From contig OY987232.1 of assembly GCA_963920705.1 (NCBI GenBank), positions 12,277,726 through 12,341,725 on the forward strand: a stretch of DNA of 64,000 nucleotides, written 5' to 3'. The number at the start of each line of letters is the position of its first letter. Within the stretch, counting starts at the first letter, position 1. The notes under the pieces are model-generated. The model was not told the origin of the DNA, searched no databases, and saw only the letters and a program-made list of their open reading frames with translations. The position numbers and the translations under genes were made by a program. Positions 1 to 58,356 of this stretch are shown here, in pieces. This stretch comes from Odiellus spinosus. Its lineage: Eukaryota; Arthropoda; Arachnida; Opiliones; Phalangiidae.

Positions 1-18
1 CAACTGAGCTATCGACGG
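1..18 (-). tRNA. tRNA-Tyr: tRNA-Tyr, array copy 0, cut by window edge
   Basis: Only the acceptor 5' strand and part of the D arm (18 bp, the gene's 5' end) are inside the window; what is visible matches the consensus. Confidence 0.85.
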
Positions 19-88
19 TTGAACTAGACACCACTTTCATAGATTAGTATGATTGTTCCACTTTTAAAATGTTAAAATATATTGTGCC

Positions 89-181
89 TCCGTCGAGCTG
101 GTTTAGAGCCAGCGACCTAATGATATCAACAGTTTTTAGGCCCTCTACACTCCTCCGCTGTACCAACTGAGCTATCGACGG
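89..181 (-). tRNA. tRNA-Tyr: tRNA-Tyr (GUA), copy 1, degenerate
   Basis: It has G22C, C32G, C41A and an altered T loop (CTCTAAA), so the B box is lost while the T stem is repaired by G63A. It is probably a pseudogene or a weakly transcribed copy. Confidence 0.55.
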
Positions 182-251
182 TTGAAAAACACTCCACTTT
201 CATAGATTAGTATGATTGTTCCACTTTTAAAATGTTAAAATCCATGGTTTC

Positions 252-344
252 TCCGTCAAGCCGGATTTGAACCAGCGACCTAATGATATCAAGAGTTTTT
301 ACGCCCTCTACAGTCCTCCGCTCTACCAACTGAGCTATCGACGG
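252..344 (-). tRNA. tRNA-Tyr: tRNA-Tyr (GUA), copy 2
   Basis: C67U makes a G6-U67 wobble and C41A breaks one anticodon-stem pair; both promoter boxes are intact. Confidence 0.75.
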
Positions 345-414
345 TTGAACTAGACACCACTTTCATAGATTAGTATGATTGTTCCACTTTTAAAATGTTA
401 AAATCTATTTTTTT

Positions 415-507
415 TCCGTCGAGCCGGATTTGAACCAGCGACCTAAGGATATCAACAGTTTATGCGCCCTCTACAGTCCTCCGCTCTACCAACTGAGCTA
501 TCGACGG
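415..507 (-). tRNA. tRNA-Tyr: tRNA-Tyr (GUA), copy 3
   Basis: The mature sequence is the exact array consensus; the intron is 20 nt. Its terminator spacer has an unusually long T run (plus-strand sense). Confidence 0.93.
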
Positions 508-569
508 TTGATATAGACATCACTTTCATAGATTAGTATGATTGTTCCACTTTTAAAATATATTGTGCT

Positions 570-662
570 TCCGTCGAGCCGGATTTGAACCAGCGGCCTA
601 AGGATATCAACAGTTTTTACGCCCTCTACAGTCCTCCGCTCTATCAACTGAGCTATCGACGG
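570..662 (-). tRNA. tRNA-Tyr: tRNA-Tyr (GUA), copy 4
   Basis: U47C and G19A; G19 normally pairs with C56 in the elbow, so folding may be weakened. Confidence 0.8.
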
Positions 663-732
663 TTGATATAGACATCACTTTCATAGATTAGTATGATTGT
701 TCCACTTTTAAAATGTTAAAATCTATTGTTTT

Positions 733-825
733 TCCGTCGAGCCGGATTTGAACAAGCGACCTAAGGATATCAACAGATTATACGCCCTCTACAATCCTCC
801 GCTCTACCAACTTAGCTATCGACGG
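733..825 (-). tRNA. tRNA-Tyr: tRNA-Tyr (GUA), copy 5
   Basis: C13A disrupts the D stem, C32U alters the anticodon loop and G52U breaks the T stem and B box; activity is doubtful. Confidence 0.65.
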
Positions 826-895
826 TTGATATAGACATCACTTTCATAGATTAGTATGTTTGTTCCACTTTTAAAATGTCAAAATATATAATGCT

Positions 896-988
896 TCCGT
901 CGAGCCGGATTTGAACCAGCGACCTAAGGATATCAACAGTTTATGCGCCCTCTACAGTCCTCCGCTCTACCAACTGAGCTATCGACGG
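896..988 (-). tRNA. tRNA-Tyr: tRNA-Tyr (GUA), copy 6
   Basis: Exact consensus mature sequence; the intron carries a GCATAAA variant. Confidence 0.93.
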
Positions 989-1050
989 TTGATATAGACA
1001 TCACTTTCATAGATTAGTATGATTGTTCCACTTTTAAAATATATTGCGCT

Positions 1051-1143
1051 TCCGTCGAGCCGGATTTGAACCAGCGGCCTAAGGATATCAACAGTTTTTA
1101 CGCCCTCTACAGTCCTCCGCTCTACCAACTGAGCTATCGACGG
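1051..1143 (-). tRNA. tRNA-Tyr: tRNA-Tyr (GUA), copy 7
   Basis: Only U47C in the variable loop departs from consensus, which should be neutral. Confidence 0.9.
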
Positions 1144-1213
1144 TTGAATAACACACCACTTTCATAGATTAGTATGTTTGTTCCACTTTTAAAATGTTAA
1201 AATATATAATGCT

Positions 1214-1306
1214 TCCGTCGAGCCGGATTTGAACCAGCGACCTAAGGATATCAACAGATTTTACGCCCTCTACAGTCCTCCGCTCTACCAACTGAGCTAT
1301 CGACGG
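1214..1306 (-). tRNA. tRNA-Tyr: tRNA-Tyr (GUA), copy 8
   Basis: Exact consensus mature sequence. Confidence 0.93.
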
Positions 1307-1368
1307 TTGATATAGACATCACTTTCATAGATTAGTATGATTGTTCCACTTATAAAATATATTATGCT

Positions 1369-1461
1369 TCCGTCGAGCCGGATATGAACCAGCGACCTAA
1401 GGATATCAACAGTTTTTACGCCCTCTACAATCCTCCGCTCTACCAACTGAGCTATCGACGG
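1369..1461 (-). tRNA. tRNA-Tyr: tRNA-Tyr (GUA), copy 9
   Basis: A58U hits an invariant T-loop and B-box base, and C32U changes the anticodon loop. Confidence 0.7.
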
Positions 1462-1531
1462 TTGATGAAGACATCACTATCATAGATTAGTATGATTGTT
1501 CCACTTTTAAAATGTTAAAATCTATAGTTTT

Positions 1532-1624
1532 TCCGTCGAGCCGGATTTGAACCAGCGACCTAAGCATATCAACAGATTATACGCCCTCTACAGTCCTCCG
1601 CTCTACCAACTGAGCTATCGACGG
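1532..1624 (-). tRNA. tRNA-Tyr: tRNA-Tyr (GUA), copy 10
   Basis: C40G breaks the G30-C40 anticodon-stem pair; the rest is consensus. Confidence 0.8.
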
Positions 1625-1686
1625 TTGATATAGACATCACTTTCATAGATTAGTATGATTGTTCCACTTTTAAAATATATTGCGCT

Positions 1687-1779
1687 TCCGTCGAGCCGGA
1701 TTTGAACCAGCGACCTAAGGATATCAACAGTTTTTACGCCCTCTACAGCCCTCCGCTCTATCAACTGAGCTATCGACGG
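1687..1779 (-). tRNA. tRNA-Tyr: tRNA-Tyr (GUA), copy 11
   Basis: It belongs to the recurrent A31G + G19A class; A31G leaves a G-U pair at the foot of the anticodon stem. Confidence 0.82.
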
Positions 1780-1849
1780 TTGAACTAGACACCACTTTCA
1801 TAGATTAGTATGATTGTTCCACTTTTAAAATGTTAAAATATATTGTGCC

Positions 1850-1942
1850 TCCGTCGAGCTGGTTTTGAACCAGCGACCTAATGATATCAACAGTTTTTAG
1901 GCCCTCTACAGTCCTCCGCTCTACCAACTGAGCTATCGACGG
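1850..1942 (-). tRNA. tRNA-Tyr: tRNA-Tyr (GUA), copy 12
   Basis: G63A makes a better T-stem pair, U60A changes the T loop and C41A breaks one anticodon-stem pair. Confidence 0.75.
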
Positions 1943-2004
1943 TTGATATAGACATCACTTTCATAGATTAGTATGATTGTTCCACTTTTAAAATATATTG
2001 TGCT

Positions 2005-2097
2005 TCCGTCGAGCCGGATTTGAACCAGCGACCTAAGGATATCAACAGTTTTTACGCCCTCTACAGCCCTCCGCTCTATCAACTGAGCTATCGACGG
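2005..2097 (-). tRNA. tRNA-Tyr: tRNA-Tyr (GUA), copy 13
   Basis: A31G + G19A class. Confidence 0.82.
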
Positions 2098-2167
2098 TTG
2101 ATATAGACATCACTTTCATAGATTAGTATGATTGTTCCACTTTTAAAATGTTAAAATCTATTGTTTT

Positions 2168-2260
2168 TCCGTCGAGCCGGATTTGAACCAGCGACCTAAG
2201 GATATCAACAGATTATACGCCCTCTACAGTCCTCTGCTCTACCAACTTAGCTATCGACGG
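2168..2260 (-). tRNA. tRNA-Tyr: tRNA-Tyr (GUA), copy 14
   Basis: G26A at the D/anticodon junction and C13A in the D stem. Confidence 0.75.
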
Positions 2261-2322
2261 TTGATATAGACATCACTTTCATAGATTAGTATGATTGTTC
2301 CACTTTTAAAATATATTGTGCT

Positions 2323-2415
2323 TCCGTCGAGCCGGATTTGAACCAGCGACCTAAGGATATCAACAGTTTTTACGCCCTCTACAGTCCTCCGCTCTACCAA
2401 CTGAGCTATCGACGG
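2323..2415 (-). tRNA. tRNA-Tyr: tRNA-Tyr (GUA), copy 15
   Basis: Exact consensus mature sequence. Confidence 0.93.
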
Positions 2416-2485
2416 TTGAATAACACACCACTTTCATAGATTAGTATGTTTGTTCCACTTTTAAAATGTTAAAATATATAATGCT

Positions 2486-2578
2486 TCCGTCGAGCCGGAT
2501 TTGAACCAGCGACCTAAGGATATCAACAGATTTTACGCCCTCTACAGTCCTCCGCTCTACCAACTGAGCTATCGACGG
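2486..2578 (-). tRNA. tRNA-Tyr: tRNA-Tyr (GUA), copy 16
   Basis: Exact consensus mature sequence; last unit of the first duplicated block. Confidence 0.93.
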
Positions 2579-2648
2579 TTGATGAAGACATCACTATCAT
2601 AGATTAGTATGATTGTTCCACTTTTAAAATGTTAAAATCTATAGTTTT

Positions 2649-2741
2649 TCCGTCGAGCCGGATTTGAACCAGCGACCTAAGGATATCAACAGATTATACG
2701 CCCTCTACAGTCCTCCGCTCTACCAACTGAGCTATCGACGG
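2649..2741 (-). tRNA. tRNA-Tyr: tRNA-Tyr (GUA), copy 17
   Basis: Exact consensus mature sequence; it lies between the two duplicated blocks. Confidence 0.93.
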
Positions 2742-2803
2742 TTGATATAGACATCACTTTCATAGATTAGTATGATTGTTCCACTTTTAAAATATATTGT
2801 GCT

Positions 2804-2896
2804 TCCGTCGAGCCGGATTTGAACCAGCGACCTAAGGATATCAACAGTTTTTACGCCCTCTACAGCCCTCCGCTCTATCAACTGAGCTATCGACGG
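2804..2896 (-). tRNA. tRNA-Tyr: tRNA-Tyr (GUA), copy 18
   Basis: A31G + G19A class; its gene 5' end is the counterpart of the copy cut by the window edge. Confidence 0.82.
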
Positions 2897-2966
2897 TTGA
2901 ACTAGACACCACTTTCATAGATTAGTATGATTGTTCCACTTTTAAAATGTTAAAATATATTGTGCC

Positions 2967-3059
2967 TCCGTCGAGCTGGTTTAGAGCCAGCGACCTAATG
3001 ATATCAACAGTTTTTAGGCCCTCTACACTCCTCCGCTGTACCAACTGAGCTATCGACGG
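2967..3059 (-). tRNA. tRNA-Tyr: tRNA-Tyr (GUA), copy 19, degenerate
   Basis: Duplicate of copy 1 with the same lost B box, G22C, C32G and C41A. Confidence 0.55.
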
Positions 3060-3129
3060 TTGAAAAACACTCCACTTTCATAGATTAGTATGATTGTTCC
3101 ACTTTTAAAATGTTAAAATCCATGGTTTC

Positions 3130-3222
3130 TCCGTCAAGCCGGATTTGAACCAGCGACCTAATGATATCAAGAGTTTTTACGCCCTCTACAGTCCTCCGCT
3201 CTACCAACTGAGCTATCGACGG
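3130..3222 (-). tRNA. tRNA-Tyr: tRNA-Tyr (GUA), copy 20
   Basis: Duplicate of copy 2 (C67U, C41A). Confidence 0.75.
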
Positions 3223-3292
3223 TTGAACTAGACACCACTTTCATAGATTAGTATGATTGTTCCACTTTTAAAATGTTAAAATCTATTTTTTT

Positions 3293-3385
3293 TCCGTCGA
3301 GCCGGATTTGAACCAGCGACCTAAGGATATCAACAGTTTATGCGCCCTCTACAGTCCTCCGCTCTACCAACTGAGCTATCGACGG
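3293..3385 (-). tRNA. tRNA-Tyr: tRNA-Tyr (GUA), copy 21
   Basis: Duplicate of copy 3; exact consensus. Confidence 0.93.
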
Positions 3386-3447
3386 TTGATATAGACATCA
3401 CTTTCATAGATTAGTATGATTGTTCCACTTTTAAAATATATTGTGCT

Positions 3448-3540
3448 TCCGTCGAGCCGGATTTGAACCAGCGGCCTAAGGATATCAACAGTTTTTACGC
3501 CCTCTACAGTCCTCCGCTCTATCAACTGAGCTATCGACGG
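3448..3540 (-). tRNA. tRNA-Tyr: tRNA-Tyr (GUA), copy 22
   Basis: Duplicate of copy 4 (U47C, G19A). Confidence 0.8.
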
Positions 3541-3610
3541 TTGATATAGACATCACTTTCATAGATTAGTATGATTGTTCCACTTTTAAAATGTTAAAAT
3601 CTATTGTTTT

Positions 3611-3703
3611 TCCGTCGAGCCGGATTTGAACAAGCGACCTAAGGATATCAACAGATTATACGCCCTCTACAATCCTCCGCTCTACCAACTTAGCTATCGA
3701 CGG
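3611..3703 (-). tRNA. tRNA-Tyr: tRNA-Tyr (GUA), copy 23
   Basis: Duplicate of copy 5 (C13A, C32U, G52U). Confidence 0.65.
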
Positions 3704-3773
3704 TTGATATAGACATCACTTTCATAGATTAGTATGTTTGTTCCACTTTTAAAATGTCAAAATATATAATGCT

Positions 3774-3866
3774 TCCGTCGAGCCGGATTTGAACCAGCGA
3801 CCTAAGGATATCAACAGTTTATGCGCCCTCTACAGTCCTCCGCTCTACCAACTGAGCTATCGACGG
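3774..3866 (-). tRNA. tRNA-Tyr: tRNA-Tyr (GUA), copy 24
   Basis: Duplicate of copy 6; exact consensus. Confidence 0.93.
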
Positions 3867-3928
3867 TTGATATAGACATCACTTTCATAGATTAGTATGA
3901 TTGTTCCACTTTTAAAATATATTGCGCT

Positions 3929-4021
3929 TCCGTCGAGCCGGATTTGAACCAGCGGCCTAAGGATATCAACAGTTTTTACGCCCTCTACAGTCCTCCGCTC
4001 TACCAACTGAGCTATCGACGG
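3929..4021 (-). tRNA. tRNA-Tyr: tRNA-Tyr (GUA), copy 25
   Basis: Duplicate of copy 7 (U47C). Confidence 0.9.
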
Positions 4022-4091
4022 TTGAATAACACACCACTTTCATAGATTAGTATGTTTGTTCCACTTTTAAAATGTTAAAATATATAATGCT

Positions 4092-4184
4092 TCCGTCGAG
4101 CCGGATTTGAACCAGCGACCTAAGGATATCAACAGATTTTACGCCCTCTACAGTCCTCCGCTCTACCAACTGAGCTATCGACGG
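4092..4184 (-). tRNA. tRNA-Tyr: tRNA-Tyr (GUA), copy 26
   Basis: Duplicate of copy 8; exact consensus. Confidence 0.93.
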
Positions 4185-4246
4185 TTGATATAGACATCAC
4201 TTTCATAGATTAGTATGATTGTTCCACTTATAAAATATATTATGCT

Positions 4247-4339
4247 TCCGTCGAGCCGGATATGAACCAGCGACCTAAGGATATCAACAGTTTTTACGCC
4301 CTCTACAATCCTCCGCTCTACCAACTGAGCTATCGACGG
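4247..4339 (-). tRNA. tRNA-Tyr: tRNA-Tyr (GUA), copy 27
   Basis: Duplicate of copy 9 (A58U, C32U). Confidence 0.7.
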
Positions 4340-4409
4340 TTGATGAAGACATCACTATCATAGATTAGTATGATTGTTCCACTTTTAAAATGTTAAAATC
4401 TATAGTTTT

Positions 4410-4502
4410 TCCGTCGAGCCGGATTTGAACCAGCGACCTAAGCATATCAACAGATTATACGCCCTCTACAGTCCTCCGCTCTACCAACTGAGCTATCGAC
4501 GG
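4410..4502 (-). tRNA. tRNA-Tyr: tRNA-Tyr (GUA), copy 28
   Basis: Duplicate of copy 10 (C40G). Confidence 0.8.
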
Positions 4503-4564
4503 TTGATATAGACATCACTTTCATAGATTAGTATGATTGTTCCACTTTTAAAATATATTGCGCT

Positions 4565-4657
4565 TCCGTCGAGCCGGATTTGAACCAGCGACCTAAGGAT
4601 ATCAACAGTTTTTACGCCCTCTACAGCCCTCCGCTCTATCAACTGAGCTATCGACGG
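4565..4657 (-). tRNA. tRNA-Tyr: tRNA-Tyr (GUA), copy 29
   Basis: Duplicate of copy 11 (A31G, G19A). Confidence 0.82.
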
Positions 4658-4727
4658 TTGAACTAGACACCACTTTCATAGATTAGTATGATTGTTCCAC
4701 TTTTAAAATGTTAAAATATATTGTGCC

Positions 4728-4820
4728 TCCGTCGAGCTGGTTTTGAACCAGCGACCTAATGATATCAACAGTTTTTAGGCCCTCTACAGTCCTCCGCTCT
4801 ACCAACTGAGCTATCGACGG
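4728..4820 (-). tRNA. tRNA-Tyr: tRNA-Tyr (GUA), copy 30
   Basis: Duplicate of copy 12 (G63A, U60A, C41A). Confidence 0.75.
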
Positions 4821-4882
4821 TTGATATAGACATCACTTTCATAGATTAGTATGATTGTTCCACTTTTAAAATATATTGTGCT

Positions 4883-4975
4883 TCCGTCGAGCCGGATTTG
4901 AACCAGCGACCTAAGGATATCAACAGTTTTTACGCCCTCTACAGCCCTCCGCTCTATCAACTGAGCTATCGACGG
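4883..4975 (-). tRNA. tRNA-Tyr: tRNA-Tyr (GUA), copy 31
   Basis: Duplicate of copy 13 (A31G, G19A). Confidence 0.82.
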
Positions 4976-5045
4976 TTGATATAGACATCACTTTCATAGA
5001 TTAGTATGATTGTTCCACTTTTAAAATGTTAAAATCTATTGTTTT

Positions 5046-5138
5046 TCCGTCGAGCCGGATTTGAACCAGCGACCTAAGGATATCAACAGATTATACGCCC
5101 TCTACAGTCCTCTGCTCTACCAACTTAGCTATCGACGG
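5046..5138 (-). tRNA. tRNA-Tyr: tRNA-Tyr (GUA), copy 32
   Basis: Duplicate of copy 14 (G26A, C13A). Confidence 0.75.
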
Positions 5139-5200
5139 TTGATATAGACATCACTTTCATAGATTAGTATGATTGTTCCACTTTTAAAATATATTGTGCT

Positions 5201-5293
5201 TCCGTCGAGCCGGATTTGAACCAGCGACCTAAGGATATCAACAGTTTTTACGCCCTCTACAGTCCTCCGCTCTACCAACTGAGCTATCGACGG
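5201..5293 (-). tRNA. tRNA-Tyr: tRNA-Tyr (GUA), copy 33
   Basis: Duplicate of copy 15; exact consensus. Confidence 0.93.
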
Positions 5294-5363
5294 TTGAATA
5301 ACACACCACTTTCATAGATTAGTATGTTTGTTCCACTTTTAAAATGTTAAAATATATAATGCT

Positions 5364-5456
5364 TCCGTCGAGCCGGATTTGAACCAGCGACCTAAGGATA
5401 TCAACAGATTTTACGCCCTCTACAGTCCTCCGCTCTACCAACTGAGCTATCGACGG
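5364..5456 (-). tRNA. tRNA-Tyr: tRNA-Tyr (GUA), copy 34
   Basis: Duplicate of copy 16; exact consensus and last unit of the duplicated block. Confidence 0.93.
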
Positions 5457-5518
5457 TTGATATAGACATCACTTTCATAGATTAGTATGATTGTTCCACT
5501 TATAAAATATATTGTGCT

Positions 5519-5611
5519 TCCGTCGAGCCGGATTTGAACCAGCGACCTAAGGATATCAACAGTTTTTACGCCCTCTACAGTCCTCCGCTCTACCAACTGA
5601 GCTATCGACGG
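5519..5611 (-). tRNA. tRNA-Tyr: tRNA-Tyr (GUA), copy 35
   Basis: Exact consensus mature sequence. Confidence 0.93.
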
Positions 5612-5681
5612 TTGATACAGTCTCCACTTTCATAGATTAGTATGATTGTTCCACTTTTAAAATGTTAAAATCTATTGTTTT

Positions 5682-5774
5682 TCCGTCGAGCCGGATTTGA
5701 ACCAGCGACCTAAGGATATCAACAGATTATACGCCCTCTACAGTCCTCCGCTCTACCAACTGAGCTATCGACGG
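5682..5774 (-). tRNA. tRNA-Tyr: tRNA-Tyr (GUA), copy 36
   Basis: Exact consensus mature sequence; first unit of the second duplicated block. Confidence 0.93.
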
Positions 5775-5836
5775 TTGATATAAACATCACTTTCATAGAT
5801 TAGTATGATTGTTCCACTTTTAAAATACATTGTGCT

Positions 5837-5929
5837 TCCGTCGAGCCGGATTTGAACCAGCGACCTAAGGATATCAACAGTTTTTACGCCCTCTACAGCC
5901 CTCCGCTCTATCAACTGAGCTATCGACGG
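5837..5929 (-). tRNA. tRNA-Tyr: tRNA-Tyr (GUA), copy 37
   Basis: A31G + G19A class. Confidence 0.82.
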
Positions 5930-5999
5930 TTGAAATAGACACCACTTTCATAGATTAGTATGATTGTTCCACTTTTAAAATGTTAAAATATATTGTGCC

Positions 6000-6092
6000 T
6001 CTGTCGAGCTGGATTTGAACCAGCGACCTAATGATATCAACAGTTTTCAGCCCCTCTACACTCCTCCGCTCTACCAACTGAGATATCGACGG
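6000..6092 (-). tRNA. tRNA-Tyr: tRNA-Tyr (GUA), copy 38, degenerate
   Basis: G71A breaks the C2-G71 acceptor pair, G10U breaks the D stem and A box, and C32G and C41A hit the anticodon arm. It is probably non-functional. Confidence 0.55.
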
Positions 6093-6162
6093 TTGAAGTA
6101 GGCACCACTTTCATAGATTAGTATGATTGTTCCACTTTTAAAATGTTAAAATTTATTGTTTT

Positions 6163-6255
6163 TCCGTCGAGCGGCATTTGAACCAGCGACCTAAGGATAT
6201 CAACAGATTATGCGCCCTTTACAGTCCTCCGCTCTACCAACTGAGCTATCGACGG
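6163..6255 (-). tRNA. tRNA-Tyr: tRNA-Tyr (GUA), copy 39
   Basis: C61G and G63C damage the T stem and G37A changes the base next to the anticodon. Confidence 0.65.
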
Positions 6256-6317
6256 TTGATATCGACATCACTTTCATAGATTAGTATGATTGTTCCACTT
6301 TTAAAATATATTGTACT

Positions 6318-6410
6318 TCCGTCGAGCCGGATATGAACCAGCGACCTGAGGATATCAACAGTTTTTACGCCCTCTACAGTCCTCCGCTCAACCAACTGAG
6401 CTACCGACGG
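6318..6410 (-). tRNA. tRNA-Tyr: tRNA-Tyr (GUA), copy 40
   Basis: A58U, A21U, A7G (G-U with U66) and U43C (restores a G27-C43 pair). Confidence 0.65.
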
Positions 6411-6480
6411 TTGCTATAGACATCACTTTCATAGATTAGTATGATTGTTCCACTTTTAAAATGTTAAAATCTATTGTTTT

Positions 6481-6573
6481 TCCGTCGAGCCGGATATGAA
6501 CCAGCGACCTAAGGATATCAACAGACTATACGCCCTCTACAGTCCTCCGCTCTACCAACTGAGCTATCGACGG
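6481..6573 (-). tRNA. tRNA-Tyr: tRNA-Tyr (GUA), copy 41
   Basis: A58U is the only change in the mature sequence. Confidence 0.78.
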
Positions 6574-6635
6574 TTGATATAGTCATCACTTTCATAGATT
6601 AGTATGATTGTTCCACTTTTAAAATATATTGTGCA

Positions 6636-6728
6636 TCCGTCGAGCCGGATTTGAACCAGCGACCTAAGGAGATCAACAGTTTATACGCCCTCTTCAGTCC
6701 TCCGCTCTATCAACTGAGCTATCGACGG
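6636..6728 (-). tRNA. tRNA with GAA (Phe-type) anticodon in a Tyr body, copy 42
   Basis: U35A changes the anticodon from GUA to GAA, which reads UUY (Phe) codons. A38C sits at the 3' intron boundary and G19A is also present. Acceptor stem, C1-G72, A73 and both promoter boxes stay tyrosine-like, so if made it could be mischarged with Tyr or be a pseudogene. It is the only anticodon change in the array. Confidence 0.75.
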
Positions 6729-6790
6729 TTGATATAGACATCCCTTTCATAGATTAGTATGATTGTTCCACTTTTAAAATATATTGTGCT

Positions 6791-6883
6791 TCCGTCGAGC
6801 CGAATTTGAACCAGCGACCTAAGGATATCAACAGCTTTTACGCCCTCTACAGCCCTCCGCTCTATCAACTGAGCTATCGACGG
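6791..6883 (-). tRNA. tRNA-Tyr: tRNA-Tyr (GUA), copy 43
   Basis: C61U replaces the invariant G53-C61 pair by G-U; A31G and G19A are also present. Confidence 0.72.
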
Positions 6884-6953
6884 TTGAATTAGACACCACT
6901 TTCATAGATTAGTATGATTGTTCCACTTTTAAAATGTTAAAACCTATCGTTTT

Positions 6954-7046
6954 TCCGTCGAGCCGGATTTGAACCAGCGACATAAGGACATCAACAGCTT
7001 ATGCGCCCTCTACAGTCCTCCGCTCTACCAACTGAGCTATCGACGG
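6954..7046 (-). tRNA. tRNA-Tyr: tRNA-Tyr (GUA), copy 44
   Basis: G45U in the variable loop and A38G at the intron 3' boundary. Confidence 0.78.
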
Positions 7047-7108
7047 TTGATATAGTCATCACTTTCATAGATTAGTATGATTGTTCCACTTTTAAAATAT
7101 ATTGTGCA

Positions 7109-7192
7109 TCCGTCGAGCCGGATATGAACCAGCGACCTAAGAATATCAACAGCTTTTACAGTCCTCCGCTCTACCAACTGAGCTATCGACGG
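7109..7192 (-). tRNA. tRNA-Tyr: tRNA-Tyr (GUA), copy 45, 11-nt intron
   Basis: Nine bases are missing between two TAC repeats (plus strand), leaving an 11-nt intron and A in place of G37. A58U and C40U are also present. Confidence 0.7.
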
Positions 7193-7254
7193 TTGATATA
7201 GACATCACTTTCATAGATTAGTATGATTGTTCCACTTTTAAAATCTATTGTTTT

Positions 7255-7347
7255 TCCGTCGAGCCGGATTTGAACCAGCGACCTAAGGATATCAACAGAT
7301 TATGCGCCCTCTACAGTCCTCCGCTCTACCAACTGAGCTATCGACGG
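7255..7347 (-). tRNA. tRNA-Tyr: tRNA-Tyr (GUA), copy 46
   Basis: Exact consensus mature sequence. Confidence 0.93.
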
Positions 7348-7409
7348 TTGATATAGTCATCACTTTCATAGATTAGTATGATTGTTCCACTTTTAAAATA
7401 TATTGTGCA

Positions 7410-7502
7410 TCCGTCGAGCCGGATTTGAACCAGCGACATAAGGATATCAACAGCTTATGCGCCCTCTACAGTCCTCCGCTCTACCAACTGAGCTATCGAC
7501 GG
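7410..7502 (-). tRNA. tRNA-Tyr: tRNA-Tyr (GUA), copy 47
   Basis: Only G45U differs from consensus. Confidence 0.87.
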
Positions 7503-7564
7503 TTGATATAGTCATCACTTTCATAGATTAGTATGATTGTTCCACTTTTAAAATATATTGAGCA

Positions 7565-7657
7565 TCCGTCGAGCCGGATTTGAACCAGCGACCTAAGAAT
7601 ATCAACAGCTTTTACGCCCTCTACAGTACTCCGCTCTACCAACTGAGCTATCGACGG
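7565..7657 (-). tRNA. tRNA-Tyr: tRNA-Tyr (GUA), copy 48
   Basis: G30U and C40U together turn one anticodon-stem pair into a U-U mismatch. Confidence 0.75.
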
Positions 7658-7719
7658 TTGATATAGACATCACTTTCATAGATTAGGATGATTGTTCCAC
7701 TTTTAAAATCTATTGTTTT

Positions 7720-7812
7720 TCCGTCGAGCCGGATTTGAACCAGCGACCTAAGGATATCAACAGATTATGCGCCCTCTACAGTCCTCCGCTCTACCAACTG
7801 AGCTATCGACGG
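7720..7812 (-). tRNA. tRNA-Tyr: tRNA-Tyr (GUA), copy 49
   Basis: Exact consensus mature sequence. Confidence 0.93.
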
Positions 7813-7874
7813 TTGATATAGACATCACTTTCATAGATTAGTATGATTGTTCCACTTTTAAAATATATTGTGCT

Positions 7875-7967
7875 TCCGTCGAGCTGGATTTGAACCAGCG
7901 ACCTAAGGATATCAACAGTTTTTACGCCCTCTACAGTAATCCCCCCTACCAACTGAGCTATCGACGG
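7875..7967 (-). tRNA. tRNA-Tyr: tRNA-Tyr (GUA), copy 50, degenerate
   Basis: A23G, C25G, G29U and G30U disrupt both D and anticodon stems; probably a pseudogene. Confidence 0.5.
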
Positions 7968-8036
7968 TTGATGAAGACATCACTATCATAGATAAGTATG
8001 ATTGTTCCACTTTTAAAATGTTAAAATCTATAGTTT

Positions 8037-8129
8037 TCCGTCGAGCCGGATTTGAACCAGCGACCTAAGGATATCAACAGATTATACGCCCTCTACAGTC
8101 CTCCGCTCTACCAACTGAGCTATCGACGG
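8037..8129 (-). tRNA. tRNA-Tyr: tRNA-Tyr (GUA), copy 51
   Basis: Exact consensus mature sequence; the spacer on its 3' side has lost one T. Confidence 0.93.
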
Positions 8130-8191
8130 TTGATATATACATCACTTTCATAGATTAGTATGATTGTTCCACTTTTAAAATATATTGCGCT

Positions 8192-8284
8192 TCCGTCGAG
8201 CCGGATTTGAACCAGCGACCTAAGGATATCAACAGTTTTTACGCCCTCTACAGCCCTCCGCTCTATCAACTGAGCTATCGACGG
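8192..8284 (-). tRNA. tRNA-Tyr: tRNA-Tyr (GUA), copy 52
   Basis: A31G + G19A class. Confidence 0.82.
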
Positions 8285-8354
8285 TTGAACTAGACACCAC
8301 TTTCATAGATTAGTATGATTGTTCCACTTTTAAAATGTTAAAATATATTGTGCC

Positions 8355-8447
8355 TCCGTCGAGCTGGTTTTGAACCAGCGACCTAATGATATCAACAGTT
8401 TTTAGGCCCTCTACACTCCTCCGCTCTACCAACTGAGCTATCGACGG
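8355..8447 (-). tRNA. tRNA-Tyr: tRNA-Tyr (GUA), copy 53
   Basis: G63A, U60A, C41A and C32G; close to copies 12 and 30. Confidence 0.7.
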
Positions 8448-8517
8448 TTGAAGTAGGCACCACTTTCATAGATTAGTATGATTGTTCCACTTTTAAAATG
8501 TTAAAATCTATAGTTTT

Positions 8518-8610
8518 TCCGTCGAGCCGGATTTGAACCAGCGACCTAAGGATATCAACAGTTTATGCGCCCTCTACAGTCCTCCGCTCTACCAACTGAG
8601 CTATCGACGG
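8518..8610 (-). tRNA. tRNA-Tyr: tRNA-Tyr (GUA), copy 54
   Basis: Exact consensus mature sequence. Confidence 0.93.
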
Positions 8611-8672
8611 TTGATATAGACATCACTTTCATAGATTAGTATGATTGTTCCACTTTTAAAATATATTGTACT

Positions 8673-8765
8673 TCCATCGAGCCGGATTTGAACCAGCGGC
8701 CTAAGGATATCAACAGTTTTTACGCCCTCTACAGCCCTCCGCTCTACCAACTGAGCTATCGACTG
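8673..8765 (-). tRNA. tRNA-Tyr: tRNA-Tyr (GUA), copy 55
   Basis: C2A creates an A-G mismatch in the acceptor stem and C70U a G-U pair; U47C and A31G are also present. Confidence 0.65.
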
Positions 8766-8835
8766 TTGAATAACACACCACTTTCATAGATTAGTATGTT
8801 TGTTCCACTTTTAAAATGTTAAAATATATTGTGCT

Positions 8836-8928
8836 TCCGTCGAGCCGGATTTGAACCAGCGACCTAAGGATATCAACAGTTTTTACGCCCTCTACAGTCC
8901 TCCGCTCTACCAACTGAGCTATCGACGG
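8836..8928 (-). tRNA. tRNA-Tyr: tRNA-Tyr (GUA), copy 56
   Basis: Exact consensus mature sequence. Confidence 0.93.
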
Positions 8929-8990
8929 TTGATATAGTCATCACTTTCATAGATTAGTATGGTTGTTCCACTTTTAAAATATATTGTACT

Positions 8991-9083
8991 TCCGTCGAGC
9001 CGGATTTGAACCAGCGGCCTAAGGATATCAACAGTTTTTACGCCCTCTACAGTCCTCCGCTCTACCAACTGAGCTATCGACGG
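8991..9083 (-). tRNA. tRNA-Tyr: tRNA-Tyr (GUA), copy 57
   Basis: Only U47C differs from consensus. Confidence 0.9.
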
Positions 9084-9153
9084 TTGAATAACACACCACT
9101 TTCATAGATTAGTATGTTTGTTCCACTTTTAAAATGTTAAAATATATTGTGCT

Positions 9154-9246
9154 TCCGTCGAGCCGGATTTGAACCAGCGACCTAAGGATATCAACAGTTT
9201 TTACGCCCTCTACAATCCTCCGCTCTACCAACTGAGCTATCGACGG
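9154..9246 (-). tRNA. tRNA-Tyr: tRNA-Tyr (GUA), copy 58
   Basis: Only C32U differs from consensus. Confidence 0.87.
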
Positions 9247-9316
9247 TTGATATAGTCATCACTTTCATAGATTAGTATGATTGTTCCACTTTTAAAATGT
9301 TAAAATCTATTGTTTT

Positions 9317-9409
9317 TCCGTCGAGCCGGATTTGAACCAGCGACCTAAGGATATCAACAAGTTATACGCCCTCTACAGTCCTCCGCTCTACCAACTGAGC
9401 TATCGACGG
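9317..9409 (-). tRNA. tRNA-Tyr: tRNA-Tyr (GUA), copy 59
   Basis: Exact consensus mature sequence with a private intron change (CTTGTTGAT at the intron 3' end). Confidence 0.92.
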
Positions 9410-9471
9410 TTGATATAAACATCACTTTCATAGATTAGTATGATTGTTCCACTTTTAAAATACATTGTGCT

Positions 9472-9564
9472 TCCGTCGAGCCGGATTTGAACCAGCGACC
9501 TAAGGATATCAACAGTTTTTACGCCCTCTACAGCCCTCCGCTCTATCAACTGAGCTATCGACGG
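9472..9564 (-). tRNA. tRNA-Tyr: tRNA-Tyr (GUA), copy 60
   Basis: A31G + G19A; block partner of copy 37. Confidence 0.82.
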
Positions 9565-9634
9565 TTGAAATAGGCACCACTTTCATAGATTAGTATGATT
9601 GTTCCACTTTTAAAATGTTAAAATATATTGTGCC

Positions 9635-9727
9635 TCTGTCGAGCTGGATTTGAACCAGCGACCTAATGATATCAACAGTTTTCAGCCCCTCTACACTCCT
9701 CCGCTCTACCAACTGAGATATCGACGG
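9635..9727 (-). tRNA. tRNA-Tyr: tRNA-Tyr (GUA), copy 61, degenerate
   Basis: Block partner of copy 38 with the same acceptor, D-stem and anticodon-arm defects. Confidence 0.55.
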
Positions 9728-9797
9728 TTGAAGTAGGCACCACTTTCATAGATTAGTATGATTGTTCCACTTTTAAAATGTTAAAATCTATTGTTTT

Positions 9798-9890
9798 TCC
9801 GTCGAGCCGCATTTGAACCAGCGACCTAAGGACATCAACAGATTATGCGCCCTCTACAGTCCTCCGCTCTACCAACTGAGCTATCGACGG
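9798..9890 (-). tRNA. tRNA-Tyr: tRNA-Tyr (GUA), copy 62
   Basis: C61G breaks the closing T-stem pair and A38G lies at the intron edge; partner of copy 39. Confidence 0.7.
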
Positions 9891-9952
9891 TTGATATCGA
9901 CATCACTTTCATAGATTAGTATGATTGTTCCACTTTTAAAATATATTGTGCT

Positions 9953-10045
9953 TCCGTCGAGCCGGATATGAACCAGCGACCTGAGGATATCAACAGTTTT
10001 TACGCCCTCTACAGTCCTCCGCTCTACCAACTGAGCTACCGACGG
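9953..10045 (-). tRNA. tRNA-Tyr: tRNA-Tyr (GUA), copy 63
   Basis: A58U, U43C and A7G; partner of copy 40 without its A21U. Confidence 0.7.
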
Positions 10046-10115
10046 TTGCTATAGACATCACTTTCATAGATTAGTATGATTGTTCCACTTTTAAAATGTT
10101 AAAATCTATTGTTTT

Positions 10116-10208
10116 TCCGTCGAGCCGGATATGAACCAGCGACCTAAGGATATCAACAGACTATACGCCCTCTACAGTCCTCCGCTCTACCAACTGAGCT
10201 ATCGACGG
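10116..10208 (-). tRNA. tRNA-Tyr: tRNA-Tyr (GUA), copy 64
   Basis: A58U only; partner of copy 41. Confidence 0.78.
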
Positions 10209-10270
10209 TTGATATAGTCATCACTTTCATAGATTAGTATGATTGTTCCACTTTTAAAATATATTGTGCT

Positions 10271-10363
10271 TCCGTCGAGCCGGATTTGAACCAGCGACCT
10301 AAGGATATCAACAGCTTTTACGCCCTCTACAGCCCTCCGCTCTATCAACTGAGCTATCGACGG
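10271..10363 (-). tRNA. tRNA-Tyr: tRNA-Tyr (GUA), copy 65
   Basis: A31G + G19A; partner of copy 43 without its C61U. Confidence 0.82.
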
Positions 10364-10433
10364 TTGAAGTAGGCACCACTTTCATAGATTAGTATGATTG
10401 TTCCACTTTTAAAATGTTAAAACCAATTGTTTT

Positions 10434-10526
10434 TCCGTCGAGCCGGATTTGAACCAGCGACATAAGGATATCAACAGCTTATGCGCCCTCTACAGTCCTC
10501 CGCTCTACCAACTGAGCTATCGACGG
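10434..10526 (-). tRNA. tRNA-Tyr: tRNA-Tyr (GUA), copy 66
   Basis: Only G45U differs; partner of copy 44. Confidence 0.87.
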
Positions 10527-10588
10527 TTGATATAGTCATCACTTTCATAGATTAGTATGATTGTTCCACTTTTAAAATATATTGTGCA

Positions 10589-10681
10589 TCCGTCGAGCCG
10601 GATTTGAACCAGCGACCTAAGAATATCAACAGCTTTTACGCCCTCTACAGTCCTCCGCTCTACCAACTGAGCTATCGACGG
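10589..10681 (-). tRNA. tRNA-Tyr: tRNA-Tyr (GUA), copy 67
   Basis: Only C40U (G-U pair); partner of copy 45 but with the full 20-nt intron, so the 9-nt loss came after the block duplication. Confidence 0.87.
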
Positions 10682-10743
10682 TTGATATAGACATCACTTT
10701 CATAGATTAGTATGATTGTTCCACTTTTAAAATCTATTGTTTT

Positions 10744-10836
10744 TCCGTCGAGCCGAATTTGAACCAGCGACCTAAGGATATCAACAGATTATGCGCCCTC
10801 TACAGTCCTCCGCTCTACCAACTGAGCTATCGACGG
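10744..10836 (-). tRNA. tRNA-Tyr: tRNA-Tyr (GUA), copy 68
   Basis: Only C61U, which weakens the invariant G53-C61 pair. Confidence 0.82.
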
Positions 10837-10898
10837 TTGAAATAGACATCACTTTCATAGATTAGTATGATTGTTCCACTTTTAAAATCTATTGTTTT

Positions 10899-10991
10899 TC
10901 CGTCGAGCCGGATTTGAACCAGCGACCTAAGGATATCAACAGATTATACGCCCTCTACAGTCCTCCGCTCTACCAACTGAGCTATCGACGG
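10899..10991 (-). tRNA. tRNA-Tyr: tRNA-Tyr (GUA), copy 69
   Basis: Exact consensus mature sequence. Confidence 0.93.
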
Positions 10992-11053
10992 TTGATATAG
11001 ACATCACTTTCATAGATTAGTATTATTGTTCCACTTTTAAAATATATCGTGCT

Positions 11054-11146
11054 TCCGTCGAGCCGGATTTGAACCAGCGACCTAAGGATATCAACAGATT
11101 ATACGCCCTCTACAGTCCTCCGCTCTACCAACTGAGCTATCGACGG
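11054..11146 (-). tRNA. tRNA-Tyr: tRNA-Tyr (GUA), copy 70
   Basis: Exact consensus; first of four 155-bp units sharing private spacer changes, a very recent local expansion. Confidence 0.93.
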
Positions 11147-11208
11147 TTGATATAGACATCACTTTCATAGATTAGTATTATTGTTCCACTTTTAAAATAT
11201 ATCGTGCT

Positions 11209-11301
11209 TCCGTCGAGCCGGATTTGAACCAGCGACCTAAGGATATCAACAGATTATACGCCCTCTACAGTCCTCCGCTCTACCAACTGAGCTATCGACG
11301 G
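11209..11301 (-). tRNA. tRNA-Tyr: tRNA-Tyr (GUA), copy 71
   Basis: Exact consensus; unit identical to copy 70. Confidence 0.93.
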
Positions 11302-11363
11302 TTGATATAGACATCACTTTCATAGATTAGTATTATTGTTCCACTTTTAAAATATATCGTGCT

Positions 11364-11456
11364 TCCGTCGAGCCGGATTTGAACCAGTGACCTAAGGATA
11401 TCAACAGTTTTTACGCCCTCTACAATCCTCCGCTCTACCAACTGAGCTATCGACGG
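11364..11456 (-). tRNA. tRNA-Tyr: tRNA-Tyr (GUA), copy 72
   Basis: G49A unpairs the first T-stem position; C32U. Confidence 0.78.
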
Positions 11457-11518
11457 TTGATATAGACATCACTTTCATAGATTAGTATTATTATTCCACT
11501 TTTAAAATATATCGTGCT

Positions 11519-11611
11519 TCCGTCGAGCCGGATTTGAACCAGTGACCTAAGGATATCAACAGTTTTTACGCCCTCTACAGTCCTCCGCTCTACCAACTGC
11601 GCTATCGACGG
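11519..11611 (-). tRNA. tRNA-Tyr: tRNA-Tyr (GUA), copy 73
   Basis: G49A, and U12G in the D stem and A box. Confidence 0.72.
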
Positions 11612-11681
11612 TTGAATTACACACCACTTTCATAGATTAGTATGTTTGTTCCACTTTTAAAATGTTAAAATATATTATGCA

Positions 11682-11774
11682 TCCGTCGAGCCGGATTTGA
11701 ACCAGCGACCTAAGAATATCAACAGTTTTTACGCCCAATACAGTCCTCCGCTCTACCAACTGAGCTATCGACGG
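11682..11774 (-). tRNA. tRNA-Tyr: tRNA-Tyr (GUA), copy 74
   Basis: C40U, G37U and a changed first intron base, so splicing and decoding may be affected. Confidence 0.7.
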
Positions 11775-11844
11775 ATGAAATACACAGCACTTTCATAGAT
11801 TAGTATGTTTGTTCCACTTTAAAAATGTTAAAATATATTGTGCT

Positions 11845-11937
11845 TCCGTCGAGCCGGATTTGAACCAGCGACCTAAGGATATTAACAGCTTTTACGCCCT
11901 CTACAATCCTCCGCTCTACCAACTGAGCTATCGACGG
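11845..11937 (-). tRNA. tRNA-Tyr: tRNA-Tyr (GUA), copy 75
   Basis: C32U plus one intron change. Confidence 0.83.
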
Positions 11938-12007
11938 TAGAAATTGACACCACTTTCATAGATTAGGATGATTGTTCCACTTTTAAAATGTTAAAATCTA
12001 TGGTTTC

Positions 12008-12091
12008 TCCGTCTAGCCGGATTTGAACCAGCGACCTAAGGATATCAACAGCTTCTACAGTCCTCCGCTCTACCAACTGAGCTATCGACAG
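12008..12091 (-). tRNA. tRNA-Tyr: tRNA-Tyr (GUA), copy 76, 11-nt intron
   Basis: A second 9-nt intron loss keeps G37 here. C67A gives a G-A mismatch and C2U a U-G pair in the acceptor stem. Confidence 0.62.
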
Positions 12092-12171
12092 TTGATATAG
12101 ACACCACTTTCATAGATTAGTATGATTGTTCCACTTTTAAATTGTTGAAGCATATTGTGCTTCCGTAGAGC

Positions 12172-12264
12172 CGGATTTGAACCAGCGACCTAAGGATATC
12201 AACAGTTTATAGGCCCTCTACAGTCCTCCGCTCTACCGACTGAGCTATCGACGGTTGAGACTTC
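12172..12264 (-). tRNA. tRNA-Tyr: tRNA-Tyr (GUA), copy 77
   Basis: G68U breaks an acceptor pair; U17C in the D loop. Confidence 0.68.
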
Positions 12265-12321
12265 GCTTTCATATATTAGTATGATTGTTCCACTTTTAAA
12301 ATGTTAAAAATCTATAGTTTC

Positions 12322-12414
12322 TCCGTCGAGCCGGATTAGAACCAGCGACCTAAGGATATCAACATCTTTTACGCCCTCTACAGTCCTCCGCTCTACCAAC
12401 TGAGCTATCGACGG
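12322..12414 (-). tRNA. tRNA-Tyr: tRNA-Tyr (GUA), copy 78, edge of array
   Basis: A57U in the T loop is the only mature change. The sequence upstream of its 5' end is unrelated to the spacer, so this unit marks the array boundary. Confidence 0.8.
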
Positions 12415-24107: not shown

Positions 24108-25130
24108 CAAAAGTTTATCACCTTATTCCTTAAAAGTAAACCACACCCCTTAGCAAATGTAACGGCGGATTCTGATTCTAGACACTCTAGCGGCCGCATT
24201 CGCCGTGTAAATGATGAAATCGGAAACGCCACTCTTTGGAGTAATTCCGGAGTTGAGGGGGAAGACAATATAGCCAAGCGTGGCCCGTCTAAATTCCGTC
24301 TCTCCCTCCAGACACAAAATATCGAGGAAGAGTCCAAACCACTCGAGCCAGACAGGGGTGATGACTTTTTTGACTATTTATAATTAGAGGACTATGACGT
24401 AAAACTGGACCTTTACTGATAGTATTAAGCTAATGGGCGTTGTTTACTTTTATCGAGGAAGAGTCCAAACCACTAGAGCCAGACAGGGGTGATGACTTTT
24501 TTGGCTATTTTTAATTGAAGGACTATGACGTAAAACTGGACCTTTACTGATAGTATTAAGCTACAGGGCGTTGTATACTTTTATCGAGGAAGAGTCCAAA
24601 CCACTAGAGCCAGACAGGGGTGATGACTTCTTTGGCTATTTATAATTGGAGGGCTATGACGTAAAACTGGACCTTTACTGATAGTATTAAGCTAGAGGGC
24701 GTTGTTTACTTTTATCGAGGAAGAGTCCAAACCACTCGAGCCAGACAGGGGTGATGACTTTTTTGGCTATTTATAATTGGAGGGCTATGACGTAAAACTG
24801 GACCTTTACTGATAGTATTAAGCTACAGGGCGTTGTTTACTTTTATCGAGGAAGAGTCCAAACCACTAGAGCCAGACAGGGGTGATGACTTTTTTGGTTA
24901 TTTATAATTGGAGGACTATGACCTAAAACTGGACCTTTACTGATAGTATTAAGCTAGAGGGCGTTGTTTACTTTTGTCGAGGAAGAGTCCAAACCACTCG
25001 AGCCAGACAGGGGTGATGACTTTTTTGGCTATTTGTAATTGGAGGACTATGACCTAAAACTGGACCTTTACTGATAGTATTAAGCTACATGGCGTTGTTT
25101 ACTTCTATGGAATAAAGTGATAGACTTTTG
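24108..25130. mobile_element. Family G element, copy G2, internally amplified
   Basis: Inverted ends of about 33 bp (CAAAAGTTTATCACCTTATT and its near inverse) and a perfect 7-bp duplication CTCATAT (24101-24107, 25131-25137). The body shares the GCGGCCGC-containing segment with G1 and G3. Confidence 0.88.
24320..25105. repeat. 131-bp tandem repeat inside G2, six units
   Basis: ATCGAGGAAGAGTCC recurs at 24320, 24451, 24582, 24713, 24844 and 24975, exactly 131 bp apart. The unit is the right part of element G multiplied. Confidence 0.93.
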
Positions 25131-31995: not shown

Positions 31996-32334
31996 CTATT
32001 ATGCTAATATTTTAATATAAATAAAAATAATTATGTAAACCGGTATCTTATTTTATTTGGTTAGCACCGTTACCGTCATATACAAAGTTAGTGTAAATGG
32101 TTTTCGAAAAATAGTAAAGTTTTAAGGGAGTAGTAAGGAAGGTATTTTTTTGCGACCAACGAAAATCTTTTTATCTTTGAATAAGCCCCCCCCCCCCCCC
32201 CCCATTGCTTGAAAGTTGAAACCGACGAATCATTTTTTTAAACAAAAATAAAACATTTTTCGGCATCTGAACTTTGAAGCCTCTACATTTCAATGAACTG
32301 TTAACAGCCTTTGAGGGTAGAAGACGCGCAAACG
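31996..32334. other. 5' flank of first MATH-BTB gene
   Basis: Contains an 18-C homopolymer at 32186-32203. A short block before the start (AACAGCCTTTGAGGGTAGAA) is shared with the next paralogue; no TATA box can be assigned. Confidence 0.4.
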
Positions 32335-58315: not shown

Positions 58316-58356
58316 GTACGATGATATGAAAAAACCTAATAAGGGTAGATCAGTTG

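Follow-up and report, generated by a model that had tools for sequence, protein, structure and literature searches.

A tandem array of 391 tRNA-Tyr(GUA) genes in an arthropod-like genome combines features of a gene bank and of a tRNA-born satellite

The window, a stretch of 64,000 nucleotides, carries one end of a tandem array of tRNA-Tyr(GUA) genes (Table 1). Using nhmmer, we found 78 complete genes and one cut gene in positions 1-12414, all on the minus strand. Rfam RF00005 at the gathering score returned 76 tRNAs (76/76 on the minus strand and within this interval), ARAGORN with introns also returned 76 genes (64 Tyr and 12 others: 8 Leu, 2 Phe, 1 Asn and 1 unnamed), and TRF detected a single array in the window, covering the same positions with periods of 163, 318 and 481 and about 78 copies. 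These results confirm the first-pass annotation, which had counted at least 78 genes of the same orientation, about 22 of them with an identical mature sequence (22/78 at consensus). The window cuts the array, however, and its full size is larger than had been described: an nhmmer search with the consensus gene as query placed 391 genes head-to-tail on one strand within 63.9 kb (C8:12226279-12290139).

All 377 ARAGORN calls in the whole array coincide with Tyr genes found by nhmmer, including 40 without a Tyr label. Of the 391 copies, 383 have the anticodon GTA, 4 have GCA and 2 have GAA; in the last 2 it is deleted. The 390 gene-to-gene intervals measure 163 bp in 280 cases and 155 bp in 68, the remainder being 146-162 bp (39), 219 bp (2) and 963 bp (1). 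With this regular 163/155-bp spacing of same-strand copies, the locus is a tandem tDNA array, whose unit consists of a compact gene and a spacer of about 70 (or 62) bp, in which lie a terminator and a conserved stretch upstream of the gene. As a control, the tRNA patterns were also reversed; none of six genome-wide pattern searches found a match to them, and chance is thus no rival explanation for the array.

Table 1. Features of the tRNA-Tyr(GUA) array in the window, with one copy dissected as an example.
Feature	Position	Strand	Source
Right-hand (5'-most) end of the array, which runs on left of the window to C8:12226279	1..12414	-	TRF, Rfam, ARAGORN, nhmmer
T4 terminator of the example copy, beginning 11 nt past the gene 3' end	400..403	-	Sequence reading
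Example copy, both exons at consensus and separated by a 20-nt intron (Rfam 60.1 bits)	415..507	-	Rfam, ARAGORN
Example copy, leader from -1 to -15, where variation is fast	508..522	-	Variation profile
GAAAGTG element (-20 to -14) of the example copy	521..527	-	Sequence reading
Example copy, upstream block from -16 to -50, where variation is slow	523..557	-	Variation profile
Last gene at the array edge, upstream spacer truncated and diverged	12322..12414	-	Rfam

The array consensus is that of a nuclear tRNA-Tyr(GUA) gene, a standard cloverleaf with a GUA anticodon and an intron after position 37; Rfam scores reach 60.1 bits, and ARAGORN labels it Tyr(gta) with an intron at 38. Its copies had been described as complete throughout, each with A and B boxes and a terminator. 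This is true of only a part of them: a filter for intact copies, based on stem-pair and invariant-base checks, was passed by 32 of the 78 window copies and by 191 of all 391, and G19A, which fails it, is present in 35. Both boxes match the consensus in 238/391 copies. Terminators are more regular, with a T4+ run within 40 nt downstream in 381/391 copies; its commonest starting point, 11 nt past the gene end, is used in 356/391. The GAAAGTG element at -20 is present in 374/391 array copies, and AAAG occurs near -20 in 10 of 13 flanks of tRNA-Tyr genes elsewhere in the genome. The anticodon-intron pair C32-G(-3) is found in 354/391 copies and T-G in 18 more, leaving the splice geometry mostly kept. 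The claim that many copies are usable gains from the 145/391 with a consensus mature sequence, from the terminators, from the splice geometry and from a variation pattern that follows the Pol III unit (see below); about half of the copies are broken. Overall, the array looks like a genuine but carelessly kept bank of genes, about half of them seemingly usable, and less like a store serving one tyrosine-rich product.

Five arrays of the genome (Tyr, Lys C4, Lys C5, Cys and Ala) were profiled for variation. Leader and trailer were more diverged than exons and spacer in all five, with a narrow margin for Cys (leader 0.045, spacer 0.033), indicating that the variation follows the layout of the Pol III unit. 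In the Tyr array, common variants (>5%) per site reached 0.67 in the leader, 0.64 in the trailer, 0.20 in the intron, 0.11 and 0.05 in the spacer and 0.03 in the exon; the exon had the lowest density in each of the five arrays. The low exon figure could partly reflect recent homogenisation, and the slow variation of the spacer would be compatible with promoter constraint or with a lower spacer mutation rate, two effects that the profiles do not separate. Comparing the consensus upstream blocks of different isotypes by eye, we saw no common motif. Mutation rates of tRNA genes were reportedly addressed by Thornlow in 2018.

With identical units collapsed, rare variants exceeded the spacer level in the transcribed unit for Tyr (p=0.0008), Lys C4 (2e-5) and Lys C5 (6e-4), but Cys (0.16) and Ala (0.4) did not follow clearly; these values are generous because sites were treated as independent. 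The excess is not uniform across the unit (Tyr trailer 0.36 against spacer 0.42; Cys trailer 0.19 against 0.28; Ala exon 0.57 against 0.62). Strand-asymmetric mutation lends no support to transcription, since in the transcribed part the rare variants show the same rate of C>T per C as of G>A per G (both 0.32).

Sparing of the tRNA structure was not found among the exon changes of the Tyr array: 19/116 non-consensus haplotypes were intact, compared to 24.4 expected at random placement, and a second count gave 20/113 compared to 26.3. Tolerated variant types were not enriched among these changes either (34/102 seen versus 36/117 unseen, p=0.77), and the other four arrays lay within 2 SD of random. 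Compensatory pairing as evidence of selection was rejected, the only two double changes at stem pairs both being still unpaired, and position 32 showed no covariation with intron position -3 in the Tyr array.

About ten tDNA arrays, the Tyr array among them, were seen in the genome. Lys, Cys and Ala tRNA genes form tandem arrays on other contigs, and pattern searches returned matches at regular spacing for His, Asp and Gly tRNAs and, in small number, for Glu. The five arrays that were read have one gene per unit and spacers of about 62-88 nt. Outside the Tyr array, a genome-wide pattern search found 12 tRNA-Tyr matches, and the exons of all ten genes read on C5 and C11 are identical to the array consensus. 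The array spacer resembles the flanks of two C11 loci (L036 and L037) and, marginally, of one C13 locus (L038).

Within the Tyr array, identical consecutive units recur in runs of 5-17 at lags of 11, 18, 21, 25, 46, 86, 107 and 132, and the 17 identical units at lag 18 span the window start. Altogether, 247 of the 391 units are distinct and 171 were seen once. In these block duplications, the array resembles a satellite, a tandem repeat presumably homogenised by exchange. CpG depletion, which would have hinted at methylation, was not seen (CpG o/e 1.19 in the array part of the window versus 1.17 in the rest), and the 80 kb searched, the array included, contain no N letters.

The earlier suggestion of a satellite born from a tRNA gene is favoured by the broken copies, the structure-blind exon mutation and the block duplications, while a variation pattern that follows the Pol III unit argues against it. 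In its strict form it describes a silent array, expanded by unequal exchange, that leaves the work to the dispersed tRNA-Tyr genes. The perfect exons of all ten dispersed genes read fit this account, as do the near-random exon changes of the other four arrays. The contrast of leader and trailer with the spacer in 5/5 arrays, the few common variants in exons, the retained -20 element and terminator and the undepleted CpG speak against silence, and we regard this account as rather unlikely.

A dosage expansion specific to tyrosine, serving a tyrosine-rich secreted product, has precedents: in root-cap cells of Arabidopsis, an extensin reporter rich in Ser, Tyr and Pro is supported by the SYY cluster, and the report in question, used here in excerpt, also cites a tandem tRNA-Ala cluster of the Bombyx silk gland (PMC12308677). 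This cause, raised in the first-pass annotation, is nevertheless not supported, given the Lys, Cys and Ala arrays and the His, Asp, Gly and Glu matches at regular spacing in the same genome, and we consider it improbable. Exact multi-unit duplications such as the 17-unit run could also come from an assembly that inflated a short array; the many distinct and singly seen units, the N-free 80 kb and the arrays on further contigs make such an artefact highly improbable. The same degree of doubt applies to a main function as chromatin boundary or replication-fork barrier instead of RNA source. Barrier activity of tRNA genes has been reported, and a CTCF-bound tRNA VNTR is described in man (PMC4041453, in excerpt), but the few common variants in exons fit an RNA role better.

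Taken together, the evidence points to a position between dosage expansion and tRNA-born satellite. In our best reading, with a probability of roughly 0.6, the locus would be a tDNA array that duplicates in blocks, is competent for transcription and is subject to weak selection at array level. It probably originated from the tRNA-Tyr family on C11 and C13, which it resembles and some members of which stand in small tandems. Growth and turnover would proceed by exchange of multi-unit blocks, a mechanism suggested by the repeated blocks that we observed. New mutations would strike exons irrespective of tRNA structure, which accounts for the many broken copies, and the variant frequencies, with exon variants seldom becoming common, suggest that selection acts weakly and at the level of the entire array. 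Transcription of the good copies is probable, and they would supplement the dispersed tRNA-Tyr set.

A precedent for this reading is Xenopus, where oocyte-specific tandem tRNA genes are switched on at zygotic genome activation (PMC11500080; this and the following reports are used in excerpt). Both systems have animal tRNA genes in tandem, but expression is demonstrated in Xenopus, whereas the Tyr array is known from sequence alone. The ncRNA tandem arrays of Hydractinia (PMC11067881) are also among the closest systems, the spacers of the present genome being about 62-88 nt. Entamoeba shares tandem arrays of many isotypes, but there almost all tRNA genes are arrayed, in 25 unit types of up to five tRNA genes each with short tandem repeats between them (PMC2652664); here, a unit holds one Tyr gene and a simple spacer, and a dispersed Tyr set remains. 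In the Arabidopsis SYY cluster, intron-bearing tRNA-Tyr genes were likewise amplified in tandem beside dispersed ones, but Ser and Tyr genes are mixed and silenced in most tissues (PMC12308677), in contrast to 391 Tyr-only units here, in which 377/377 ARAGORN calls fall on Tyr-consensus genes. The human 1q23.3 VNTR is a tandem tRNA repeat too, in which each 7.3-kb unit has a CTCF site besides its five tRNA genes and alleles comprise 9-43 units (PMC4041453). Among arthropods, the expanding and contracting clusters of the Drosophila simulans complex are termed tRNA tandem arrays in the abstract; they are small and made of mixed or identical genes, in a genome total of about 300 tRNA genes (PMC7919458), compared to 391 in one array here. 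Among the matches listed, which leave most subscription journals outside their scope, no title or abstract opening mentions an arthropod array of this size. Tandem tRNA arrays as such are already known, but compact arrays of hundreds of single-gene units look new for a chelicerate- or myriapod-like arthropod. This placement comes from the mitochondrial sequence, which reads best under code 5, with AGR as Ser, and has the order M-nad2-W-(C)-(Y)-cox1-cox2-K-D, the ground pattern of arthropods other than Pancrustacea.

Tentatively, compact tDNA satellites, mostly with units of 146-164 bp, may house a large part of the tRNA supply of this genome. Their copies would decay near-neutrally, possibly faster through Pol III-raised mutation, while unequal exchange and whole-array selection would keep a pool of good genes, so that maintenance would act by array and not by copy. 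With hundreds of young copies of a single short Pol III gene, and with the arrays of other isotypes as replicates, the genome amounts to a natural experiment. It offers a way to study how multigene families are shaped by selection, exchange and transcription-linked mutation, and whether the copy number of tRNA genes is driven by dosage or by satellite dynamics.

The tRNA-Tyr(GUA) genes at the left end of the window, on contig C8 of the 443-Mb, 286-contig assembly, form a real and very large tDNA array. Positions 1-12414 of the window are a single tandem array on the minus strand. The 78 genes reported there by the first-pass annotation were all recovered as complete, together with part of one more, but this figure holds for the window only: the whole array extends leftwards to 391 genes in 63.9 kb, according to a consensus-gene search covering 60 kb left of the window and its first 20 kb, and no N occurred in these 80 kb. 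Spacing was 163 bp in 280 of 390 intervals and 155 bp in 68, with one 963-bp gap. The array is interrupted once by an insert of about 800 bp (locus L014, about 8870-9665), which by eye apparently has TTAA on both sides.

Counting His as one array, ten tRNA arrays or putative arrays, including Tyr, were found in the genome, with steps mostly of 146-164 bp and about 210 bp for Asp (table). The C5 Lys array is probably longer, because it starts at the edge of the fetched stretch. The Ala array combines two anticodons, 67 TGC and 67 CGC among 135 calls. The putative His, Glu, Asp, Gly and second Lys arrays were seen as regularly spaced pattern matches, with the isotype taken from the matched anticodon. 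Three tRNA patterns with mutually exclusive A-box letters gave 1025 + 745 + 297 = 2067 matches, which are not validated genes and include at least one gene matched twice (C4:15333897); the same patterns reversed gave 0 matches each. Leu, Ser, Met, Asn, Gln, Trp, Pro and Val lay outside the pattern searches.

Coordinates and counts of tRNA arrays and of other features in the window
Feature	Location	Strand	Count or step	Basis
Window	C8:12277726-12341725			
Tyr(GUA) array	C8:12226279-12290139			consensus-gene search
Lys(TTT) array	C4		172/174 calls	sequence fetched, genes called
Lys(TTT) array	C5		123/123 calls	sequence fetched, genes called
Cys(GCA) array	C16		150/150 calls	sequence fetched, genes called
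Ala array (loci L016-L018)	C17:8319825-8341414		134/135 calls	sequence fetched, genes called
His(GTG)	C13		160-bp steps	regularly spaced pattern matches
Glu(CTC)	C3		seven	regularly spaced pattern matches
Asp(GTC)	C13		at least 82, among 100 matches listed of 585; ~210-bp steps or multiples	pattern matches
Gly(GCC)	C2		at least 100, among matches listed of 297	regularly spaced pattern matches
Second Lys array	C4		21 matches	regularly spaced pattern matches
Three similar BTB/POZ-like open frames	window 32305-33246, 35300-36280, 39059-39994	+		Pfam BTB in first and third, the two scanned
Three open frames, almost one protein text	window 40539-40895 (+), 57930-58349 (-), 58825-59193 (+)			Pfam scan of second: no match
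Open frame with leucine-rich repeats	window 62602-63294	-		Pfam LRR_8
Minisatellites (examples)	window 55231-55736, 24320-25108, 63357-64000		29, 131, 22 bp	

In the remainder of the window, the three near-identical open frames are possibly a dispersed repeat, the leucine-rich frame has a membrane-like stretch by eye, and minisatellites are plentiful (13887-64000). Elsewhere, COX1-like pieces with in-frame stops in the nuclear contigs C17 (nine, at 1.1, 3.0-3.1 and 4.2-4.4 Mb), C14 and C198 are probably mitochondrial insertions.

As its consensus the Tyr array has a standard tRNA-Tyr(GUA), interrupted behind position 37 by an intron of 20 nt. Complete copies had been described throughout; this is largely true of the terminators (a run of at least four T within 40 nt downstream in 381/391), but the A and B boxes are both at consensus in only 238 genes, and 191 (32/78 in the window) satisfy all listed stem pairs and invariant bases. 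Because the invariant-base list is textbook knowledge, 'intact' denotes a filter rather than a proof. The full 93-nt length is kept in 364 genes, the remainder carrying deletions, and the anticodon-intron pair C32-G(-3) in 354, with T-G in 18 more. The mature sequence equals the consensus in 145/391 genes and in 22/78 within the window, in agreement with the earlier count of about 22. Anticodons are GTA in 383 genes and lost in 2; the six others, Tyr bodies with GCA (Cys, 4) or GAA (Phe, 2), could misread if expressed.

Among the 391 units 247 are distinct. Runs of identical units reach 17, at lag 18. Adjacent genes differ from one another as much as randomly paired ones do (4.0 differences in both cases). 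The ten genes at each end are more diverged from the consensus (3.3 and 3.5 differences; overall 2.16), and the edges are decayed or truncated pieces. This pattern fits a turnover by block-wise unequal exchange with decaying edges.

After removal of odd-length units (retained: Tyr 387/390, Ala 131/134, Cys 148/149, Lys 172/173 and 121/122), the mean non-consensus fraction in the Tyr array was 0.210 in the trailer, 0.164 in the leader, 0.039 in the intron, 0.016 in the exon and 0.015 in the spacer. In the other four called arrays, leader (0.045-0.185) and trailer (0.062-0.164) likewise exceeded exon (0.013-0.018) and spacer (0.017-0.035), narrowly for Cys (leader 0.045 vs spacer 0.033). A slow-varying stretch at about -50 to -16 upstream of the gene stood out clearly in the Tyr and Lys arrays and partially in the Ala array, while the Cys profile did not show it evidently. 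For such a register of variation with the unit, a plain silent repeat offers no reason.

In each of the five arrays, exons had the fewest common variants (0.03-0.08 per site). Rare variants per site in Tyr numbered 1.36 (trailer), 1.33 (leader), 1.15 (exon) and 1.10 (intron), and fewer in the spacer (0.42 and 0.81). This contrast may reflect either higher mutation in the transcribed part or constraint on the spacer. With identical units collapsed, the excess in the transcribed part persisted in three arrays, Tyr and the two Lys, and did not hold in Cys and Ala; the Tyr trailer lost it, and no C>T/G>A strand asymmetry was seen in the rare variants. Spacer constraint may be favoured by an upstream element: GAAAGTG stands at -20 in 374/391 copies, and AAAG lies within -22 to -15 in 10/13 other tRNA-Tyr flanks vs 5/169 background stretches. 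All ten such flanks are on C11 and C13 (0/3 on C5), where AAAG may be due to shared descent.

At the level of single copies, intact non-consensus exon haplotypes showed no clear surplus over random placement in the five arrays: Tyr 19/116 vs 24.4 expected (recount 20/113 vs 26.3), Ala 15/44 vs 11.1, Cys 13/37 vs 11.3, Lys C4 16/53 vs 13.3 and Lys C5 5/28 vs 5.6, three being slightly above expectation within 2 SD. Individual copies thus seem free to decay, with little copy-level selection.

Of 13 tRNA-Tyr pattern matches, 12 were outside the array (C5 3, C11 7, C13 2) and one inside; the pattern was keyed to another intron start and would miss genes with different introns. Ten genes on C5 and C11, four of them in tandem on C11 at 176-bp steps, share the exons of the array consensus and differ in their introns; besides these, two further copies, one each on C11 and C13, were seen and are defective. 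Flanks of the C11 loci L036 and L037 aligned to the array spacer with scores of 34-55, above 200/200 shuffles (maxima 27-29), and those of L038 on C13 with 26 and 27, barely above the maxima of 24 and 26; for L031-L035 no flank alignment exceeded all shuffles. This likeness at L036, L037 and L038 suggests that the C8 unit most likely derives from the C11/C13 family.

The array had been proposed to be either a dosage expansion, perhaps for a tyrosine-rich product, or a tRNA-born satellite. Since other isotypes are arrayed as well, the tyrosine-specific part is not supported; the satellite holds in part, with block turnover in its favour and the register of variation against it. The array is thus no tyrosine speciality, nor is it plainly a dead satellite, and any function is one that we infer from sequence. 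Tandem tDNA arrays are known from Entamoeba (PMC2652664), Hydractinia (PMC11067881), Xenopus (PMC11500080), Arabidopsis (SYY, PMC12308677) and others; unlike the cases compared here, the Odiellus spinosus array consists of hundreds of compact single-gene units.
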